From assembly GCA_026390165.1 (NCBI GenBank), contig JAPLGM010000032.1, positions 1 through 51,693 on the forward strand: DNA of 51,693 nt, in the 5' to 3' direction. A model generated the notes under the pieces. That model was not told the origin of the DNA, searched no databases, and was given only the letters and a program-made list of their open reading frames with translations. The translations under genes and the position numbers were made by a program. Origin of the DNA: Campylobacterales bacterium. GTDB lineage: Bacteria; Campylobacterota; Campylobacteria; Campylobacterales; Sulfurimonadaceae. This document shows positions 25,005 through 34,683 of this stretch, piece after piece (positions within the stretch are counted from its first letter, which is position 1; each line of letters opens with the position of its first letter).

Positions 25005-26759
25005 TTATTTGTTACTTTCACGTAAACGAATATGAAGTTCGCGTAATTGCGTCAACTCTACGGGACTTGGTGCTTTCGTCATAATACACGATGCTTTTTG
25101 TGTTTTTGGGAATGCGATTACATCACGGATACTATCTTTTTTAGAGAGGAGCATCATGAAACGGTCAAATCCAATGGCGAATCCACCATGGGGAGGTGCT
25201 CCGAATTTCAGTGCATCGAGGAGGAAGCCGAATTTTTCTTGTGCTTCTTCTTCTTCAATCCCTAATAATCTAAAGATTTGCTCTTGGAGCGCTTGTTTGT
25301 GGATACGGATAGATCCGCCGCCTAGTTCTGTACCGTTGAGGACAATGTCATACGCGATAGACTCTATATCCTCAAGATGCTCGTGATTCAAATCACGCGG
25401 CATGGTAAACGGGTGGTGCAACGCTTTGACACGTCCCTCTTCGATTTCGAACATAGGGAAGTCAACAACCCATACAAATTCGAAACGATCTTTGTCGATC
25501 AAATTCATTTTTTCGTGCTCGGCGATGAAAATACGGAAACGTCCCATATAATCGCATACGGTTTTTTTGTCCCCTGCACCGAAGAAGACGACATCGCCTA
25601 CTTGAAGTTCTGTCCGATCAACGAGAAGTTGAAGATCTTCTGCCGTGAAGAATTTTTCTAATGGTCCTTTAAGACCCTCCTCTTTCATTTGGAAATAGCC
25701 AAGCCCTTTTGCCCCAAATTTGCGGACATACTCTTCGAAGCTTTTCATTTCCCGTTTGGAGAAGACTAGATCCGCCCCGGGTACGCGAAGCGCTTTGATG
25801 CGGTTCATTTTTGGATTTACAGCGATAGAGGTGAAAATTTCGTTATCACAACGTTCGAAAATATCAATAACATCCACCATTTTCAGATCATAACGAAGGT
25901 CAGGTTTGTCCGAACCATACCACTCCATCGCATCGGCATATTTGATACGGTTAAACGGAGTCGTAACGGTATGACCTGCACTTGCGAACATCCCTGTCAT
26001 CAACTCTTCAGCAACACGGATAACATCTTCTTGGTTACAGAAGCTCATTTCAACGTCTATTTGAGTAAATTCAGGTTGACGATCGGCACGTAAATCTTCG
26101 TCACGGAAACATTTTGCGATTTGAAAATAGCGGTCAAATCCACCCACCATTAAGAGCTGTTTAAAGAGCTGTGGTGATTGGGGGAGGGCATAAAACTCAC
26201 CGTCATGAACACGACTTGGGACGAGATAATCACGCGCACCTTCAGGGGTTGATTTGGTCAAGATAGGGGTTTCCACTTCCAAAAATCCAAGACTGTCAAG
26301 AACATTACGAGCAGCAATAGCCGCTTTTGAACGAAGTTTAAATGTCTTGTACATTTCGGGATTGCGCAAATCTAAATAACGGTATTTAAGACGAGTCTCT
26401 TCGCCTACATTATTGTCACCAATCACAAACGGGACAGGTTCAGAACGGTTTTCGATGATAAGCTCATCCACAACCACTTCAATAGAACCTGTTTGGAGAC
26501 GTGGATTGACCAGCCCCTCACCGCGTGCACGGATACGTCCATGAGCGATAAGGACAAATTCATCACGCACTTCACTCGCAAGCTTGTGAGCATGAGCATT
26601 GTCCGCAGGATCACAGACGAGCTGAATCAGACCGCTTTTATCGCGTAGATCAATAAAAACGATACCACCGTGGTCGCGATAACTGTTTGCCCAACCACAT
26701 AATACGACACTGTCGCCAACATTTGCTTCACTTAAATCAGTACAAAAATGACTTCTCAA
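25005..26759 (-). CDS. aspS: Aspartyl-tRNA synthetase
   Basis: A 584-residue class IIb synthetase with an N-terminal OB-fold anticodon domain ([21 protein letters not shown]), class II motif 2 ([18 protein letters not shown]), the bacterial GAD insertion (about 290-410), [12 protein letters not shown], and motif 3 ([17 protein letters not shown]). It starts with TTG after an AAGGA RBS. In organisms that use GatCAB, this enzyme is often non-discriminating and also forms Asp-tRNA-Asn. Whether that applies here cannot be read directly. Confidence 0.96.
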
Positions 26760-26787
26760 ATCAAAGTCCTTAGGTTTATTTTTCGCA

Positions 26788-26793
26788 ATTATA
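26788..26793 (-). promoter_or_regulatory. -10 box of the aspS-adk-adk operon
   Basis: The minus strand reads TATAAT 28 bp before the aspS TTG start, in an A/T-rich stretch without a good -35. Confidence 0.5.
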
Positions 26794-26856
26794 TCTTTTA
26801 GAAACTTTTGGTTGGGTAAGAGGGGATATTTGCTATTACTACTTTAGGAATAGCCG

Positions 26857-27210
26857 TCACGATGTTTTAAACTTCACCCTTTTTTTTAGATCGTATCTTT
26901 CGAAATAGTGCGGTAGCATTTGATCTAAAAGATGTGGAGAGATTGGAGCATGGAGTCCAAAGCCTTTTAACACTTGCGGGGGTAAGGTAGAGTTTTGAAT
27001 AGTAGGGTGTTGCAAATAAAGACGCATCGCTTTTTGTGAGCGTTTTGTAGAACCGTACGTTTGTAAATAGCGAAAATAGATTGTTTCTAAATCAGGGATG
27101 TTAGTGCTATGACATTTCACACAAGTGCGATCAAAACTATCATTGCCAAAAGCGGTGCTATTGCATACTAATACAATAGTTACAATTAGGAGATAAGAGA
27201 TTTTGGCCAT
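26857..27210 (-). CDS. Small periplasmic cytochrome c
   Basis: A 117-residue protein with a signal peptide (AKISYLLIVTIVLVCNSTAFG) and a single heme-binding CVKCH at about residues 31-35. The mature part is only about 95 residues, in the size range of class I cytochromes c. Candidate distal ligands are the Met of KAMRLYL or of LDQMLPHY. It overlaps the end of the sensor-kinase gene by 25 bp, has little RBS of its own, and is therefore probably translated by coupling. Its place behind a two-component pair that faces an efflux system suggests a redox or signal-linked periplasmic role. No electron-transfer enzyme is adjacent. Confidence 0.75.
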   Translation of the reverse strand: MAKISYLLIVTIVLVCNSTAFGNDSFDRTCVKCHSTNIPDLETIYFRYLQTYGSTKRSQKAMRLYLQHPTIQNSTLPPQVLKGFGLHAPISPHLLDQMLPHYFERYDLKKRVKFKTS

Positions 27211-28343
27211 CGGATGATAAACTCACTTCCTTGATTTTTAGTGGAGTTAATCTCCAATGTGAGATTATAGCTTTTGCATACGCGTACCACGATTTCCATC
27301 CCGATTCCAAGCCCCGTTTCAAACGATTCTCCTCTCCAATAACGCTCATATATTTTTTCTTTTTCTATATTTGACAATCCCATTCCGCTGTCTTTAATAC
27401 TTAAAAAATTTGTCGTAAGGGTGAGAATAATTGACCCTTTTGGGGTATTGTATTTGATTGCATTGGTAATGAGATTATTGAGTAAACGACGAAAATCATC
27501 GGTAACAATGGTCAGCTTCGTTTCACTTAAAGCAGTCGTGACGGAGAGTTTTTTATATTCGATGAGGGTATCAAGCAAAGCTAATTGTTCGTGGATTAAT
27601 GGGCTGATTTCTTCAGGTTTTGGAGTGGGTGAATCGGATTGAAAGTTAAGGTAAACAAGATCTTCATAAAGCCCTGTGAGTGTCTTTGCGCCGATGGAGA
27701 TGCGTTGGACAAAACGATGCAGTGAAGCCTCAGTAATTTGTTCTTCTAAAATACGGGCATTGGAGAGAATAGCGGCGATAGGGGTATTGAGATCGTGGGT
27801 TGCGTGTTTGATAAAGGTGTCGATGGTCTCAAAGGCGGTAAAGGCTGGCTTGAATGCAATACGGCTTAAAATCCACCCTACAATAGCCATAATAAAAAAA
27901 AGGGGGGTCAAGAGGGTGGCAAGCCGTATAAAGATGGGGGTTGTATCGATTTTTTTAGCAACTACGATGGTGGCTACCCCTAAAAAATAGGCAGAGAGGG
28001 TATGGCTTGCATATACCATATCTCCCTCATTGGATAAGGCGGTACTCCACACAGATGGGGTGTGCAACTGAGTAATAATGGGGAGGTGGTCAATGTCGTA
28101 GAGACCGAGTTTATACCCTTTGGTATCAATGTAAATCTCTTTGGAATAGTGCATTTGATGATTTTTCAGCTCTTTTTCAAGCTGTATGAGATAAGTATTC
28201 ATTTTTTGAATCTCATTGGCAATGAGTTGCTTTTTTTCAAGACTATAGGCAAAGAATGCTAAAATGATAAATAATATCCCCATCGATCCTAAATAAAGGA
28301 ATTGAAACTGGCGAAGAGCTGTCGTTAAATGGGGTTTATGCAA
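27186..28343 (-). CDS. Sensor histidine kinase
   Basis: A 385-residue membrane kinase. Membrane segments lie at about 18-35 and 145-165 and flank a roughly 105-residue periplasmic domain without a recognised family. No HAMP domain is evident. The phospho-His is in HATHDLNTPIAAIL (Asp replaces the usual Glu after His). The ATPase has NNLITNAIKYN, KDSGMGL and the shortened GLGIGMEIV box. It overlaps the response regulator upstream by 8 bp and the cytochrome gene downstream. It probably senses a periplasmic signal controlling the divergent export genes. Confidence 0.88.
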   Translation of the reverse strand: MHKPHLTTALRQFQFLYLGSMGILFIILAFFAYSLEKKQLIANEIQKMNTYLIQLEKELKNHQMHYSKEIYIDTKGYKLGLYDIDHLPIITQLHTPSVWSTALSNEGDMVYASHTLSAYFLGVATIVVAKKIDTTPIFIRLATLLTPLFFIMAIVGWILSRIAFKPAFTAFETIDTFIKHATHDLNTPIAAILSNARILEEQITEASLHRFVQRISIGAKTLTGLYEDLVYLNFQSDSPTPKPEEISPLIHEQLALLDTLIEYKKLSVTTALSETKLTIVTDDFRRLLNNLITNAIKYNTPKGSIILTLTTNFLSIKDSGMGLSNIEKEKIYERYWRGESFETGLGIGMEIVVRVCKSYNLTLEINSTKNQGSEFIIRWPKSLIS

Positions 28344-28998
28344 GACGGTACCCTAGGGAGCGAATCGTTTCAATTTCAAGGGTAGGAAGTGCTTTACGAA
28401 GATTTTTAATATGAGCACGCAAAGCATCCAACCCTGGATCATTTCCATATCCCCATAAAGTAGTAAAAAATTCATCGTAAGTGACGATTTTCCCTTTTTT
28501 TGCCAATAGCAACTTTAGCGTTTCCAACTCTTTGGTGTGTAGCGCCATTATCTCCCCAAATACATTGATGATACACTCCTTGATGGGATCGAAAAATAAA
28601 GTGTCATTTATGGCGATATGGGGAGAGCGTTGAGGCAAAAATGAGCGGCGGATGAGATTTTTGATTCGTGCAACCAATTCGGTCGGTTCAAACGGTTTTT
28701 TGAGATAATCATCTCCACCGCTCTCAAATCCAAGAGCAACCGATTGCGGCGATTTCTCGGAGGTTAAAAATAAAATAGGAGTTCCAATTTTCAGTGAACG
28801 CAGCGACTTTGCGAGGTCAAATCCATTTCCATCGGGGAGATTAATATCCAAAATAATAATATCGACGTGATTCTCAAAAAGGAAATCTTGCGCACTATCG
28901 AAAGAAAAAAAAGGAAAAATATCAAAATTTTCACCGCGTAAAATATCATTAATCGTATCGCTAAGGATTAAATCATCTTCGATGAGTGCTAATTTCAC
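28336..28998 (-). CDS. OmpR-family response regulator
   Basis: A 220-residue regulator. The receiver (1-115) has the acidic pair EDD, phospho-Asp in IILDINLPDGNG, Thr in FLTSE and Lys in KKPFEP. The winged-helix DNA-binding domain (about 125-220) contains ELETLKLLLAKKG, VTYDEFFTTLWG, LRAHIKNLRKAL and IRSLGYRL. It starts with GTG behind AAAGG. It heads the minus-strand signalling operon, back-to-back with tolC, and tandem TTCATATT boxes between them are its probable targets. Confidence 0.93.
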   Translation of the reverse strand: MKLALIEDDLILSDTINDILRGENFDIFPFFSFDSAQDFLFENHVDIIILDINLPDGNGFDLAKSLRSLKIGTPILFLTSEKSPQSVALGFESGGDDYLKKPFEPTELVARIKNLIRRSFLPQRSPHIAINDTLFFDPIKECIINVFGEIMALHTKELETLKLLLAKKGKIVTYDEFFTTLWGYGNDPGLDALRAHIKNLRKALPTLEIETIRSLGYRLA

Positions 28999-29018
28999 AC
29001 AGAACCTTTATCTTTTTT

Positions 29019-29056
29019 TATGAAACTGTAGCATAAATTCATATTCGTTTCATATT
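29019..29056. promoter_or_regulatory. Putative response-regulator operator between the divergent operons
   Basis: TTCATATT occurs at 29038-29045 and again at 29049-29056. The 11-bp start-to-start spacing places both on one face of DNA, as OmpR/PhoB-type dimers require. An overlapping inverted repeat pairs TATGAAAC (29019-29026) with GTTTCATA (29047-29054). The sites lie about 20-40 bp upstream of the tolC -10 box. Binding is inferred, not shown. Confidence 0.5.
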
Positions 29057-29074
29057 AATAGTCTACAATTATTC

Positions 29075-29080
29075 TATAAT
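29075..29080 (+). promoter_or_regulatory. -10 box of the tolC efflux operon
   Basis: TATAAT lies 24 bp before tolC. No recognisable -35 is present at the right distance; the regulator boxes occupy that position, as expected for an activated promoter. Confidence 0.5.
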
Positions 29081-29104
29081 CATGAAAAAAAGGAAATATG
29101 CCCT

Positions 29105-30385
29105 ATGCGATCAAGAAGTGTTTATCTCTTTTTTTACCTCAGCGTGACTCTTAGCGCCTTTACACTTGAAGAAGCGGTTGATCGTACTTTAAAAACGCAC
29201 CCAACCGCTCAAATCGCATCACTACAGTATGAGAGTGCCGTAGAAGCCAGCAAAATTGCCCATTCGGCATTTTTCCCTCGTGTTGATGCTAATGTGGCGT
29301 ATTATCCAACGAGAACGTATGTCATGCCCGCAAGCGGTCTGTTTTCTACGAAGCAAAATGATGGTTTTCATGCTGATGTGACGGGAACGTATTCGGTGTG
29401 GGATTTTGGACGCTCTCGCGATAAAAATGCCGCGGCGTTGAAATTGCAAGAAGGGGCAGGATTTACCCAGAAAATGACTCAAGCAGAGCTAACCCAACAG
29501 GTGTGGCTACAGTATTATGGTGTTGCCTACACCGCTTTGTTGGTTGAAACAGCAGACGCTTCGGTGCGCTTTTATGAAGAGCAATTTAAACAAGCGCATG
29601 CGTTGTATCTAAATGGGCTCAAAACCCAAGCCGATGAACTACGATTTAAAGCCTCTTTGATGGAGGCGCACGATCGTGCTGCAAGTGTGCGAAGTGATTA
29701 TGATAAAGCATCTTTGGCCTTGGGGCTTTTAATCGGGAGTGATACCTTGACTCGAGTGGAAAAAGAGGATTTAGATGCGAGGACACTAATTGTTGATTCT
29801 CGTACTTTTGATTTGGATACCCTTAGAAAAGAGCTAGGAGCGAATAACCCTCGCCTTAAATCGTTACGTGCCTCTGTTGAAGCCGCCAAATCTCTAAGTG
29901 ATGCTGCACAGCACGAACAGTATGGAAATGTGATACTAGCAGGTTCCTACGGATACGATAATTCGCTTTCATCCTATAGTAGTTATCAAGTAGGAGTGCT
30001 GGGGACGATACCGCTGTATGATGGAGGGAAGCTTTCATCGGAGGGGCAAAAAAGCCGTATTGCCTACACAATCGCTCAAAAAGAGTTCGAGAGTAGTGAG
30101 CGTGCACTGTGGCAAGAACTCTATGAAGCCTATAGTGATTTGAGACGTGCGAACGAGACGATGTCAGCAAAAGCGAGTGTTATCGACGCTACCGCACAGA
30201 CATTGCATCTTATTCAAGGACGTTATGCGCAAGGGTTAGCAAGCTACGTGGATGTGTTAGAATCTCAAAGTGCCCTTGATACTGCGCGTGCAGGTCTTGC
30301 CCAAGCTAAATATCAAAAAATTCGTGCCTACGCACAGATGCAAAAATTATTACACCAAGGATGCAACAATGACGTTTGCAAATAA
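29105..30385 (+). CDS. TolC-family outer-membrane efflux protein
   Basis: A 426-residue protein with a signal peptide (SVYLFFYLSVTLSAF) and the two-fold repeated long-helix build of TolC-type channels. Repeat marks include LEEAVDRTLKTHPT at the start, NPRLKSLRASVEAAKSLSD in the second half, and QGRYAQGLASYVDVLESQS near the end. The trimer forms the outer-membrane duct of tripartite pumps. The C-terminus has an unusual Cys-rich tail (CNNDVC), which may only reflect the 17-bp overlap with the next gene. It is the first gene of a five-gene operon. Confidence 0.9.
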   Translation: MRSRSVYLFFYLSVTLSAFTLEEAVDRTLKTHPTAQIASLQYESAVEASKIAHSAFFPRVDANVAYYPTRTYVMPASGLFSTKQNDGFHADVTGTYSVWDFGRSRDKNAAALKLQEGAGFTQKMTQAELTQQVWLQYYGVAYTALLVETADASVRFYEEQFKQAHALYLNGLKTQADELRFKASLMEAHDRAASVRSDYDKASLALGLLIGSDTLTRVEKEDLDARTLIVDSRTFDLDTLRKELGANNPRLKSLRASVEAAKSLSDAAQHEQYGNVILAGSYGYDNSLSSYSSYQVGVLGTIPLYDGGKLSSEGQKSRIAYTIAQKEFESSERALWQELYEAYSDLRRANETMSAKASVIDATAQTLHLIQGRYAQGLASYVDVLESQSALDTARAGLAQAKYQKIRAYAQMQKLLHQGCNNDVCK

Positions 30386-31313
30386 TAGACCCTTAATCAT
30401 TGGGATTATCCTAGCCGTTGTTGGGGGAGCGGTCATCTATAAGAAAGTGATAGTACCGAAAACGCCCCCTATTGTTATGGATACCAATAGGAGCCAAGAA
30501 TCGTCCTCTATCATTCACGGTGTGGGGACGTTGGAAGCAAAAGAGATTGTCGTCCTTGCCCCAAAAACAACGGCAAAACTTCAAGAACTCTATGCCGATG
30601 AGGGGGATAGGGTGCAATCAGGTCAAGTGCTGGCAAAAATGGAGATTTCAGAACTGGCAGGGAATGTTTTAGAGAGTACCGCTTCGATTGCCAAAAGCCG
30701 TTCACAGCTTGCCGTTTCAAAAGCCGTTATTGCGGATCTGGAGGCAAAAAAATTGCTTGCCGATACGACACTGACACGTTATTCGACACTCCTCAAAGGG
30801 GGATTTGTTACCCAATCAGAGTTTGATGCAGCACACGCTGGTTCTCGCAGTGCGGCAGCGCAGCTCACAAGTGCCAAAGAGAATCTTGAACTCTCAGTAC
30901 ATGACATCGAAAAATCAGAAGCGGCTTTAGTCGCGCAAAAAGCAAAAATCAATGATTTGACGCTACGTTCGCCGTTTGATGGAGTTGTTGTCTCCCGAAA
31001 TGCAGAAGTGGGGAGTACTGTTGCCTCAGGATCAACTGTTTTTCGACTCGCCAATCCCAAAACAGTGTGGGTGAAAGTTTATATCAATGAAACGCAAAGC
31101 GGAGCGTTACACGTTGGTCAACTGGCTTGGGTAACATTACGTTCCATGGGTGAGAAAAAATTTAAGGGGGAAGTGGCACGTATTGGGGTCGAGTCGGATC
31201 GAATTACGGAGGAGAGAGTTGTTTATATACGGTTGATAGATGTTCCTGAAATGTTGCATTTAGGGGAACAAGTCGAAGCCGATATTAATACGAAAAATCT
31301 CTCATCTCTATGA
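30369..31313 (+). CDS. HlyD/DevB-type membrane-fusion protein
   Basis: A 314-residue periplasmic adaptor anchored by one N-terminal helix (IIGIILAVVGGAVIY). A biotinyl-lipoyl-like half-motif (VVLAPKTTAKLQELYADEG) is followed by a coiled-coil hairpin (about 95-190), the second half (LTLRSPFDGVVVSRNAEVG) and a beta-barrel domain. It couples the inner-membrane ABC permease to TolC. The start at 30369 was chosen because AAGGA lies 7 bases upstream; a longer frame from 30270 would add 33 unlikely residues inside tolC. The stop overlaps the permease start (ATGA). Confidence 0.9.
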   Translation: MTFANNRPLIIGIILAVVGGAVIYKKVIVPKTPPIVMDTNRSQESSSIIHGVGTLEAKEIVVLAPKTTAKLQELYADEGDRVQSGQVLAKMEISELAGNVLESTASIAKSRSQLAVSKAVIADLEAKKLLADTTLTRYSTLLKGGFVTQSEFDAAHAGSRSAAAQLTSAKENLELSVHDIEKSEAALVAQKAKINDLTLRSPFDGVVVSRNAEVGSTVASGSTVFRLANPKTVWVKVYINETQSGALHVGQLAWVTLRSMGEKKFKGEVARIGVESDRITEERVVYIRLIDVPEMLHLGEQVEADINTKNLSSL

Positions 31314-32446
31314 TTAATCTTGCCCAACGGGATATTGCCCACTCTCTCGGGAAATTTATCACTACCGCATTGGGGGTTGGAATGCTCATCGGTGTTGTCC
31401 TCAGTATGATCGGTATTTATCGGGGGATGGTGCACGATGCGATGATTGTCCCTAACGACATCGGTGCACATCTATGGGTCGTTCAAAAAGATACATTGGG
31501 ACCGTTTGCCGAAAACTCCCGCCTTCACGAAGATCTCAAATATTCACTCAGAGGTTTTGAGGGGGTAAAAGAGGTGCAGCCTCTCACCTTTCAAAGCATT
31601 CAACTCCCCCATGCGATTAAGCCTGTGCGGGTATTCGCTCTGGGATATGATGCATTCAGCGGATATACCCCTTTTTCTCTAAGTGAGGGGAGAGCGATCC
31701 ATATCCCTCAAAACGAGATGATTGTTGATGATAAAACAGGATTTAAAATCGGGGATAAGATTCCTCTTGGACGTGAAACATACAATGTAGTAGGATTAAC
31801 GCATAAAGCGGTCTCTTCTGGCGGTGATCCGATGGTCTATCTTGATTTAGATGAAGCGCAAGAATTGCAGTTTTTGTTTAGCAATGAGCAAATACGCAAT
31901 GATCGAACACGAGGAAGCGCGAACAGTTCTATCGCCACCGTCAATGCCTTCGCTGTGATAGTAAATGATGAGGCAAACGCTTCAGCAGTTGCACACGAGA
32001 TAATTCGATGGAAGCATCAGCAGGTCTTTACACAAGAGGAGCAATCGGATATTTTGACCAAAAATATGATCGAGCGTTCCGCCAAACAAATCGGTATGTT
32101 TACGGTGATTTTACTGATCGTCTCTTCGGTCATCATCTCACTCATTATCTACACGATGACGATGGGGAAAATGAAAGAGATTGCTATTTTAAAACTGATA
32201 GGAGCACCCAACAGTGTTATTACAAAAATGATCGTCCAGCAATCGTTGCTTCTTGGCGTTTTGGCATTTATCGGAGGGAATATTTTTGCCCACGCGCTTT
32301 ACAACGTATTTCCTAAAACCGTTATCCTTGTTCCGATGGACGCCCTCAAACTTTTTGGTGTGATACTCATTGTGAGTATCTTAGGTTCACTCTCAGGGGT
32401 TCGTTCAGCCCTTCGTGTTGACCCTTCTAGTGCGATAGGGGGATGA
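31310..32446 (+). CDS. FtsX/DevC-type ABC transporter permease
   Basis: A 378-residue inner-membrane protein. One N-terminal helix (about 15-40) is followed by a roughly 220-residue periplasmic domain and three C-terminal helices (about 265-375). This is the MacB/FtsX topology without a fused ATPase. IAILKLIGAPNSVI after the second helix is the typical cytoplasmic coupling segment. With separate ATPase, HlyD and TolC genes, it resembles DevBCA-type exporters. The substrate is unknown; related systems export glycolipids, peptides, siderophores or drugs. Confidence 0.88.
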   Translation: MINLAQRDIAHSLGKFITTALGVGMLIGVVLSMIGIYRGMVHDAMIVPNDIGAHLWVVQKDTLGPFAENSRLHEDLKYSLRGFEGVKEVQPLTFQSIQLPHAIKPVRVFALGYDAFSGYTPFSLSEGRAIHIPQNEMIVDDKTGFKIGDKIPLGRETYNVVGLTHKAVSSGGDPMVYLDLDEAQELQFLFSNEQIRNDRTRGSANSSIATVNAFAVIVNDEANASAVAHEIIRWKHQQVFTQEEQSDILTKNMIERSAKQIGMFTVILLIVSSVIISLIIYTMTMGKMKEIAILKLIGAPNSVITKMIVQQSLLLGVLAFIGGNIFAHALYNVFPKTVILVPMDALKLFGVILIVSILGSLSGVRSALRVDPSSAIGG

Positions 32447-33159
32447 AGATGAAACACTCCGTTATATCTGTCGAAAAAATATCCAAGACCTACGGAAGCG
32501 GCGAGAGTGCCGTGACGGCGATTAAAGAGGCAACGTTTGAAATATTTTCAGGAGAAACCGTTGCATTATTGGGTCCCAGCGGTTCTGGGAAAACAACACT
32601 CATCACGATGATTGGGTGTATTACCGAACCAAGTAGTGGTAAACTCACCCTTAATGGCAAGCTTATGTACGATCAAAAATGGGCGATTAGCGATACCCGT
32701 AAAATCCGCCGAGAGAATATAGGTTTTATTTTTCAATCGCATAATCTAATCCCCTTTCTCAATGTACTGGAAAATGTGACATTGGTTCCTTTGATGAATA
32801 AAATCGCTACAAAAGAGGCAAACACCCATGCAAAAGAGTTGTTGGAATATTTGGGGGTAGGGGATAAGCTCGATAAAATCCCCTCACAGCTCTCAGGGGG
32901 GCAGAGTCAGCGTGTTGCCATTGCCCGTTCTTTGGCAAATAACCCCAAGATTATTTTAGCCGATGAGCCTACAGCTGCCCTTGATGCTGAGAGAGCATTA
33001 TCCGTAATGCAACTACTACGGAAACTGGCTCATGAGCAAGAGGTTGCAATTGTCGTTGTCACTCATGATGAGAGGATGTTACCGTTGTTTGATAGAATAC
33101 TACGAGTAGACGATGGTGTCGTCAAAGAAGATTTTCAAGGAGTAGATAAATATGAGTGA
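32443..33159 (+). CDS. ABC transporter ATPase (MacB/LolD type)
   Basis: A 238-residue nucleotide-binding subunit. Walker A is GPSGSGKTT (about 44-52), the Q-loop is IFQSHNLIPFLNVLENV, the signature LSGGQSQRVAIARSLANN, Walker B IILADEPTAALD, and the switch His is in VVTHDER. The family assignment comes from length and the LIPFLNVLENV region. It overlaps the permease stop by 4 bp and the methyltransferase start by 8 bp. Confidence 0.93.
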   Translation: MKMKHSVISVEKISKTYGSGESAVTAIKEATFEIFSGETVALLGPSGSGKTTLITMIGCITEPSSGKLTLNGKLMYDQKWAISDTRKIRRENIGFIFQSHNLIPFLNVLENVTLVPLMNKIATKEANTHAKELLEYLGVGDKLDKIPSQLSGGQSQRVAIARSLANNPKIILADEPTAALDAERALSVMQLLRKLAHEQEVAIVVVTHDERMLPLFDRILRVDDGVVKEDFQGVDKYE

Positions 33160-33751
33160 ACGTTTTAATAATGCAGCAGCAGGGTGGGACAAAGGGGATA
33201 TGCGTCAAAACATTGCGGAGGCAGTTTTTCAAACCATTGTGAGTCGAATAGCATTAAACCCGAGTATGAAAATTATGGATTTTGGAGCAGGGACGGGATT
33301 ACTGAGTTTTAAAATCGCCCCGATGGTAGGCTCGGTGATCGGTGTCGATCTTTCTGAAAAAATGTTGGAGCAATTGGAAGCAAAAAATACCGATGAGTTG
33401 AGGGTGGAAGCACTCTATCACGATATTCTTGCCTCGTCATTAGGGTGTGAATTTAACGGTATCGTCAGCTCAATGGCAATCCACCATGTTGCAGATACGG
33501 CGCATTTATTCCGCGAATTTTATGCCCACTTAAAAAAAGATGGTTTTGTCGCCATTGCCGATTTGGAAGAGGAAGATGGATCCTTTCATACCCATGGTAA
33601 CGAAGGGGTTCACCATTTCGGGTTTAATCGGGAGTCGTTGCGACAAACGTTGGAAGAGATTGGATTTCAAAACGTCCGTTTTCACGAGGCGTATCGGGTT
33701 GAACGAGAGAATGGAACCTATCCTATTTTCGTTCTTACAGCAATAAAATGA
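33152..33751 (+). CDS. Class I SAM-dependent methyltransferase
   Basis: A 199-residue soluble methyltransferase. Motif I is IMDFGAGTGLLSFKI (about 42-56), followed by GVDLSEKMLEQL and the post-motif segment GIVSSMAIHHVAD. The C-terminal half contains HTHGNEGVHHFGF, unusually rich in His. The acceptor is not identifiable; no Cys cluster of an arsenite methyltransferase is present. AAGGAG lies 8 bases upstream within the ATPase gene. It is the last gene of the efflux operon and might modify the exported compound. Confidence 0.85.
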   Translation: MSERFNNAAAGWDKGDMRQNIAEAVFQTIVSRIALNPSMKIMDFGAGTGLLSFKIAPMVGSVIGVDLSEKMLEQLEAKNTDELRVEALYHDILASSLGCEFNGIVSSMAIHHVADTAHLFREFYAHLKKDGFVAIADLEEEDGSFHTHGNEGVHHFGFNRESLRQTLEEIGFQNVRFHEAYRVERENGTYPIFVLTAIK

Positions 33752-33790
33752 CAAAATGCCACATATTTTTCCTCATTTGAAAAGTTGGTT

Positions 33791-33796
33791 ATAATA
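33791..33796 (+). promoter_or_regulatory. -10 box of the nadK-recN operon
   Basis: TATAAT lies 32 bp before the nadK GTG in the 77-bp gap after the methyltransferase. No -35 is visible. Confidence 0.45.
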
Positions 33797-33828
33797 GTTC
33801 CAAAATCATTGAATCAGCGAGAAATCAA

Positions 33829-34683
33829 GTGAAGTTAGAGTCTATTAACCGTATTGGAATTATTTTACGCCCCTCAACCCCTGAGCTAAAAGAGATGTTT
33901 TTAGAGGCAAAACGGATTTTTGAATCCCGTGGAATCGAAGTCGCCATCGATCATATTAGCGGTGGGATGATCGACGTGATGGGACAGCCTTTTGAGATGC
34001 TGTGTCAAAACAGCGATTTATTGGTCACCATAGGGGGGGATGGAACTCTTATCTCTGCCGTGCGACGTTCGTACAGTTATCAGCTTCCCGTCCTTGGTAT
34101 TCATGCAGGGAAATTGGGATTTTTAGCTGATTTGGATTTTACGGAACTCGAAGTGTTTGTCAATAAGCTTATTGCGGGTGATTATCGCATTGATAAGCGG
34201 GCAATGCTTCAAGCAACCATTGTGACGAAATATGGAGAGAATCGCGTTGTTGCCTTTAATGATATTGTTTTGACGCGCCCCTCCATCTCGAAAATGATCC
34301 GTCTCGAAACGTATGTCGATGGAAAAAATTTTAATACCTATTACGGCGATGGGGTCGTTATCTCTACCCCTACGGGTTCCACGGCGTATAACCTCTCGGC
34401 AGGGGGGCCTGTGTTGTTTCCCCATACCAACGTTTTTGCCCTCACCCCTATTTGCCCCCACTCCCTCACCCAACGCCCCGTTGTATTACCAGGGCATTTT
34501 GAGATAGAGATTAAAACACCTGATGCCAGTGCGCTACTTATCGTTGATGGTCAGGATATGGTGGAAATCACCGACAGCGATACGGTGCATATAAAACTAG
34601 CCGAGGGGGGTGCCCATCTCATCCATCGTTGTGAGTTTAACTACTTTGATGTTTTGAGAGAAAAATTAGGGTGGGGGGACTAA
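33829..34683 (+). CDS. nadK: NAD kinase
   Basis: A 284-residue enzyme that phosphorylates NAD to NADP. The catalytic GGDG motif is in LLVTIGGDGTLISAVR (about 63-78). The NAD-binding NDIVLTRP and the glycine-rich STPTGSTAYNLSAGGP are intact, as is the late PICPHSL segment. The length matches the family. It starts with GTG. It is followed after 3 bp by recN, the usual pair in this phylum. Confidence 0.94.
   Translation: MKLESINRIGIILRPSTPELKEMFLEAKRIFESRGIEVAIDHISGGMIDVMGQPFEMLCQNSDLLVTIGGDGTLISAVRRSYSYQLPVLGIHAGKLGFLADLDFTELEVFVNKLIAGDYRIDKRAMLQATIVTKYGENRVVAFNDIVLTRPSISKMIRLETYVDGKNFNTYYGDGVVISTPTGSTAYNLSAGGPVLFPHTNVFALTPICPHSLTQRPVVLPGHFEIEIKTPDASALLIVDGQDMVEITDSDTVHIKLAEGGAHLIHRCEFNYFDVLREKLGWGD

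Follow-up and report, generated by a model that had tools for sequence, protein, structure and literature searches.

The subject of this study is a locus at positions 26857 to 33751 of a 51,693-nucleotide stretch of DNA from a Campylobacterales bacterium of the family Sulfurimonadaceae (assembly GCA_026390165.1, contig JAPLGM010000032.1); the whole stretch is referred to below as the window. The locus places a two-component system and a small cytochrome beside an efflux pump. A first-pass annotation of the sequence had described eight genes facing outward from one 106-bp region, with overlapping junctions, and examination of the open reading frames (ORFs) bore this out: all eight ORFs were found at the expected coordinates and on the expected strands, and the junctions along both arms overlapped by 25, 8, 17, 4, 4, and 8 bp. 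The two arms are separated by a divergent, intergenic regulatory region (28999-29104, 106 bp, no strand assigned). The minus-strand arm consists of an OmpR-type response regulator with a GTG start (28336-28998; Pfam Response_reg and Trans_reg_C), a sensor histidine kinase with a TTG start (27186-28343; HisKA and HATPase_c), and a small secreted monoheme c-type cytochrome, the partner of the kinase, with a single CVKCH (26857-27210). The plus-strand arm consists of a TolC-type outer-membrane channel (29105-30385; Pfam OEP, PF02321), an HlyD/MacA-type periplasmic adaptor beginning with the ATG at 30369 (30369-31313; HlyD_D23 and HlyD_3, with TIGR01730 above its cut-off), a MacB/FtsX-type permease lacking an ATPase domain (31310-32446; MacB_PCD and FtsX), an exporter ATP-binding cassette (ABC) ATPase (32443-33159; ABC_tran, the best NCBIfam models being DevA and LolD, both below cut-off), and an S-adenosylmethionine methyltransferase that we judge to be a passenger (33152-33751; Methyltransf_23/25). 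Pfam thus confirmed the gene classes first proposed, except for the cytochrome, which had no Pfam match and was recognized by its CVKCH and signal-like N-terminus. The adjacent receiver/winged-helix regulator and HisKA/HATPase_c kinase constitute an OmpR-type two-component system by their Pfam domains. The locus is flanked by what we take to be aspS on one side and nadK and recN on the other.

The plus-strand arm contains all the parts of a MacB-type tripartite system: a permease with MacB_PCD and FtsX domains, an HlyD-type adaptor, a TolC-type channel, and an ABC ATPase. MacB proper was excluded because ATPase and permease are separate genes, and we conclude that the four genes encode a split MacB-type tripartite pump. 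The label DevBCA given at first is only approximate, since the DevA, DevB, and DevC models all fell below their cut-offs; DevBCA identity was rejected, with TIGR02971, TIGR01185, and TIGR02982 giving 54.1/129, 40.7/290.35, and 229.2/295.8 bits, respectively (score/curated cut-off). Permease homologs (E 1e-20 or better) were found in 66/248 genomes of the order, representing 25/73 genera, and the best 80 of the 539 loci from a scan of named genomes included Sulfuricurvum, Sulfurimonas, Sulfurovum, Sulfurospirillum, Aliarcobacter, and others. Comparison of the permease profile with solved structures gave no match at E 1e-5. A protein of the Haem_bd family (PF14376) is encoded near the exporter, mostly just before tolC, in 7/123 distinct exporter loci (among them L103, L159, L162, L164, and L206). 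Passages of PMC5985334 describe MacB-type pumps as ejecting noxious compounds from the periplasm.

Homologs of the cytochrome were found in 126/248 genomes at E 0.001, the weakest of which may be other cytochromes. In 100/100 loci, a partly redundant set in which the cytochrome was called by its similarity to that of the window, a same-strand kinase gene lay directly upstream of the cytochrome gene or was separated from it by one small ORF. In held-out genomes the kinase was directly upstream in 19/20 loci, and the single exception was cut at the edge of the extracted stretch. The two ORFs overlapped in 78/81 distinct cases when first-possible starts were used. The coupling of cytochrome to kinase, which had been noted as unusual, therefore holds well beyond the window. 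Because the order regulator, kinase, cytochrome recurs across the Campylobacterales, the arrangement is beyond chance, and we conclude that these genes form a conserved Campylobacterales triplet. The literature, including a review of regulation in the Campylobacterota, was available to us in part, and in those parts we did not find a kinase described as travelling with its own small c-type heme protein.

The usual neighbor of the triplet is cytochrome c553. This class I cytochrome (by Pfam) was encoded within 4 kb of 35/59 triplets lacking a nearby exporter and within 4 kb of 0/22 exporter-linked triplets; 16/59 and 1/22 of these loci, respectively, were short, so that a neighbor could be missed. 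Many loci (L033, L034, L042, L046, L058, L060) also have, between the triplet and c553, a gene for a small cysteine-bearing secreted protein that ends in SGNVPSC and belongs to no Pfam family.

The triplet was found within 10 kb of the permease in 21/123 distinct exporter loci. Among 200 Sulfurimonadaceae genomes, the permease was present in 99, the cytochrome (E 1e-20 or better) in 46, and both in 31, and in 17 of these 31 the two were within 10 kb on one contig; cytochrome matches weaker than about E 1e-20 resemble other cytochromes and were left out of the count. The permease accompanied the cytochrome in 31/46 genomes and occurred in 68/154 genomes lacking it (Fisher p 0.007, uncorrected for kinship). 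Taken by itself, this genome-level co-occurrence of triplet and exporter is modest. In a maximum-likelihood tree of 112 kinases, built by a quick method and with long branches flagged, the label "exporter-linked with cytochrome" took 5 changes, at least 4 of them forced, and all 35 c553-linked kinases fell inside one 45-row clade. Judged by this tree, the pairing of triplet and exporter recurs, with gains not distinguishable from losses, and two distant kinase lineages adjoin the same pump.

The intergenic region of the window contains TTCATATTCGTTTCATATT (29038-29056, plus strand), in which TTCATATT is repeated 11 bp apart. When the bases of the region were shuffled, 0.8% of the shuffled versions had an exact 8-mer repeat at a spacing of 10 or 11 bp. 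We propose that this direct repeat is the response-regulator box of tolC: it covers the −35 region of the proposed tolC promoter, for which TATAAT (29075-29080, plus strand) was read as a possible −10 element without a −35 consensus, and no sigma-70 hexamer pair was found in the region. A direct-repeat box at the target promoter is what the sequence of an OmpR-type system would be expected to contain. L132 and L136 have the repeat with one base changed, L139 and L147 have a more diverged version of it, and in all four it precedes the first gene of the exporter operon. The window repeat is the sole exact match to its pattern in its genome; allowing up to 3 mismatches genome-wide, there were 36 matches to the window pattern and 16 to the reversed pattern.

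For the other genera an initial pattern, TTTCAT-N5-TTTCAT, was dropped in favor of TTTCAYA-N4-TTTCAYA, the form that the box takes there. At up to 2 mismatches this pattern occurred before tolC in 10/19 loci with a linked triplet (reversed pattern, 1) and in 15/73 without one (reversed, 4), before the gene following the cytochrome in 19/35 c553 loci (reversed, 2), and before 14/314 control genes (reversed, 21). The box before the regulator gene was weaker, with 4/19 exporter loci and 3/24 c553 loci, the latter under the reversed control of 5. The pattern was then tried on more Sulfurimonadaceae, where 36 of 40 regions were scored and 4 unscorable ones were dropped. At up to 1 mismatch, the box preceded tolC in 6/10 loci with a linked triplet, in 6/10 with a triplet elsewhere in the genome, and in 0/16 without a triplet; pooled, this was 12/20 loci with a triplet in the genome versus 0/16 without. 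On unseen sequences the corresponding values were 3/3, 2/4, and 0/10 (5/7 versus 0/10). In two of the four linked misses (L285 and L286, which are the places of L136 and L139), the box stood upstream of an additional gene, of DUF1104 type, that comes before tolC; the Pfam assignment of DUF1104 was made for L136 and L147. New c553 loci had the box in 4/9 cases at 2 mismatches (reversed, 0/9) and in 7/9 at 3.

A stricter pattern, shaped on Sulfurimonas sites, gave 16 sites in 14/22 genomes with both exporter and triplet (reversed control, 1). Eleven were before tolC, 2 before a small gene ahead of the regulator, and 1 before a similar small gene elsewhere; the remaining 2, in two genomes, were flanked by a gene and, facing that gene, a P-type-ATPase-like one. 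In 22 genomes with the exporter and no triplet there was 1 site, which was not at the exporter (reversed control, 6). In G229, where the triplet is unlinked, tolC still has a perfect box. These results support the earlier suggestion that the two-component system controls the exporter: from the conservation of the box before tolC, the regulator of the triplet very probably controls this pump, both in cis and in trans, presumably by binding to the box. The P-type-ATPase-like gene adjoining the strict box in L351 and L359 (Sulfurimonas) is a possible further member of the regulon.

The CxxCH of class I cytochromes was present in 81/81 of the cytochromes, Pro69 in 81/81, and Tyr48 in 80/81. The position of the axial Met, expected in the C-terminal half, was assigned provisionally with the class I "MPP" motif. 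At this position the window cytochrome has Leu76 in place of the Met of class I, and Met was found in 46/81 cytochromes overall. The exporter-linked cytochromes (n=22) had Leu in 13, Met in 8, and Phe in 1; the c553-linked ones had Met in 21, Leu in 8, Ala in 4, Tyr in 1, and Ile in 1. By its sequence, the window cytochrome may therefore have an open sixth heme site. For a model of this protein (mean predicted local distance difference test score, pLDDT, 87.7), Foldseek found nothing at E 0.001. In the VIA comparison the 15 top rows were all class I cytochromes, with a best Z of 6.2 and a root-mean-square deviation of 2.7 over 76 residues, and a Z below 8 may reflect a common arrangement. Its profile gave weak cytochrome matches only (best E 0.0086).

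The periplasmic part of the kinase had been called unrecognized, and indeed no Pfam family was found for it, nor did any periplasmic Pfam family recur among 72 scanned kinases. In the kinase model (mean pLDDT 86.2) this part consists of a long helix and five strands, a prediction compatible with a Cache/PAS-like domain; the Foldseek matches to the model were filled by kinase cores. The kinase contains no CxxCH and so lacks the heme site of an sCache_heme domain.

The genes around related exporters point to nitrosative or respiratory stress. Among the Sulfuricurvum-type loci (n=21; permease 72% or more), which include the window, 11/21 had NnrS or a globin within 10 kb, the families being confirmed on examples. 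Six had globin-HPP directly before tolC, three of them with Nor genes as well, and L139 had NnrS, triplet, and exporter together. In three Sulfuricurvum loci (L137, L138, and L140), Nor genes, an Rrf2 regulator, a globin, and an HPP-family membrane protein stand directly before the exporter genes, an apparent nitric oxide (NO) detoxification island with a built-in efflux pump; the Rrf2 regulator of these loci scored below the NsrR cut-off. In Sulfurospirillum, 4 distinct loci have a gene for a Crp/Fnr-type regulator ahead of tolC. In the literature accessible to us, nothing specific was found on NnrS together with TolC or on TolC in Sulfurospirillum. Passages of PMC12889525 describe c-type-heme NO sensors outside the cytoplasm. 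The window belongs to genome G000 (contig C16), and elsewhere in that genome an NnrS C-terminal fragment with two stops is found in L264 (G000:C8, ~71729-72028), beside c553-type and NrdG-like genes. In some related Sulfuricurvum, sites of this kind contain the exporter, which may have moved.

In the overall explanation that we favor, and consider reasonably probable, nitrosative or respiratory stress activates the exporter by way of a kinase that has a heme protein as its partner. That protein, the periplasmic c-type cytochrome, would act together with the periplasmic domain of the kinase as sensor or co-sensor, the phosphorylated regulator would bind the 11-bp-spaced direct repeat over the −35 region of tolC, and the bound regulator would turn on the TolC-HlyD-permease-ATPase operon, whose product would probably expel a noxious compound from the periplasm. 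The triplet, its conservation, the box, and the tendency of the box to occur where a triplet does can be read from the sequences themselves. That the cytochrome takes part in sensing is plausible. Least certain are the cargo and the signal, the latter being either respiratory redox state or a heme ligand, for example NO. A number of observations weigh against the explanation. The triplet was absent within 10 kb from 102/123 exporter loci, some of them on short contigs. The 23 exporter-linked kinases without a cytochrome fall, with two more, in a different clade of the kinase tree. Part of the data served to choose the box pattern, which was frozen before its trial on more Sulfurimonadaceae. 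Genome-wide, the loose pattern at 1 mismatch was no commoner than its reversed form, and for this reason only the promoter-focused and strict tests were used. Met is kept at the axial position in 8/22 exporter-linked cytochromes. The count of NO genes (11/21) has no background rate and comes from related loci; the window has no adjacent NO gene, and its genome yields just a fragment of NnrS.

A more ambitious version, which we offer tentatively, is a three-component Campylobacterota module in which the periplasmic cytochrome c, having lost its protein sixth ligand in several lineages, is the ligand-sensing subunit of the kinase in trans, and one box tunes both c553 and the MacB-type exporter to NO or another heme ligand. 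Equally tentative is the idea that the cytochrome is no ligand sensor and that through it the kinase follows electron flow or the maturation of cytochrome c, in the manner of TorC and TorS, with c553 the main target and the exporter a secondary member of the regulon. The frequent presence of c553 beside triplets lacking an exporter (35/59), the same box before c553-side genes (19/35 at up to 2 mismatches, and 4/9 new loci), and the Met retained in 46/81 cytochromes are all consistent with it, whereas c553 is near 0/22 exporter-linked triplets and the window cytochrome has lost the Met. We regard as unlikely a Cpx/Bae-type envelope-stress or metal-efflux system, in which the kinase would sense misfolding or metal and the cytochrome would be a regulon passenger or electron sink. 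The DUF1104 gene that L136 and L147 have before tolC, Met/Gln-rich small genes ahead of the regulator in L348 and L361, and the ejection of periplasmic noxious compounds by MacB-type pumps (passages of PMC5985334) would suit such a system, but the window lacks those small genes, and a passenger is not expected beside the kinase in 100/100 partly redundant loci. Somewhat less likely still is heme or porphyrin efflux functionally like HssRS-HrtBA, with the cytochrome reading the heme supply. According to parts of PMC5985334, MacAB has been suggested to export protoporphyrin, and HrtAB, a relative of MacB, relieves heme stress; the Haem_bd-type proteins near 7/123 exporters point the same way, but there is no sequence sign of heme as the cargo.

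The methyltransferase had been regarded as part of the export unit. Its homologs (E 1e-12 or better) were present in 126/248 genomes of the order, and in other contexts it is a single gene. It was within 10 kb of the exporter in just 2/123 distinct loci, the window and L154, in both of which it is beside nadK; in L154 it is separated from the ATPase by three genes, and methyltransferase, nadK, and recN are kept together. The search across Campylobacterales genomes that the first-pass annotation had called for thus upheld the pairing of kinase with cytochrome and not that of methyltransferase with exporter. The three closest relatives (74, 67, and 65% identity) are from the same genus and have different surroundings. 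Two genomes of that genus, G136 and G211, have the methyltransferase and no exporter match, and G180, G114, and G229 have the exporter and no methyltransferase match. In L132, whose permease is 92% identical and whose triplet is in the same divergent place, a MarR-like gene follows the ATPase, and the contig ends soon after. The exporter occupies the aspS/nadK site in the window (25005-34683), in L154, and in L183 (a Sulfurimonas with 56% permease identity), a chromosomal location thus shared by two genera; L183 has no methyltransferase there. G106 has three tandem, equal-scoring copies of the methyltransferase (G106:C1:1163636-1165883), which could be an assembly artifact. Membership in the unit was rejected on the 2/123 linkage, the other contexts, and the gene order of L154; at the aspS-nadK site the methyltransferase is a passenger, to the exporter it is a chance neighbor, and the eight genes are two units, triplet and exporter, plus this one bystander. 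Modification of the exported molecule by the methyltransferase, suggested by the 8-bp overlap with the ATPase gene in the window, is therefore very improbable given the 2/123 linkage and the location elsewhere of its nearest relatives, and with the methyltransferase outside the unit there is no longer a basis for proposing that a modified small molecule is exported.

With the triplet, the question of how bacteria perceive heme ligands or redox state beyond the cytoplasm can be approached simply, and the comparative prediction that tolC has the box only where the triplet exists has already held on unseen sequences. If the favored explanation is true, a widespread, uncharacterized exporter acquires a candidate stimulus.

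Two-component control of efflux is common, and a precedent for a c-type cytochrome acting with a sensor kinase is TorS, which is influenced by TorC, a multiheme respiratory c-type cytochrome; here, instead, the protein is a dedicated monoheme one co-encoded with the kinase. With MacAB-TolC and the split relatives of MacB, such as DevBCA and PvdRT (also in passages of PMC5985334), the pump shares a channel, an adaptor, an FtsX/MacB-type permease, and a LolD-like ATPase in one operon. It differs from MacB, in which ATPase and permease are on one chain, in having separate genes for them, and from the whole group in being, as far as its sequence indicates, under a cytochrome-linked two-component system. 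HssRS-HrtBA, which effluxes heme in Gram-positives, is likewise a split ABC transporter of MacB-like type under the activating control of an OmpR-type two-component system; the present system is tripartite across the outer membrane, its kinase has a separate c-type heme protein, and a heme signal is not implied. The sCache_heme/DUF3365 NO sensors, as described in parts of PMC12889525, also link an extracytoplasmic c-type heme to a histidine kinase, with the CxxCH inside the Cache domain, whereas here the heme belongs to a protein of its own, for which class I cytochromes are the best structural matches. What is new here is the 11-bp-spaced direct repeat before tolC (29038-29056).

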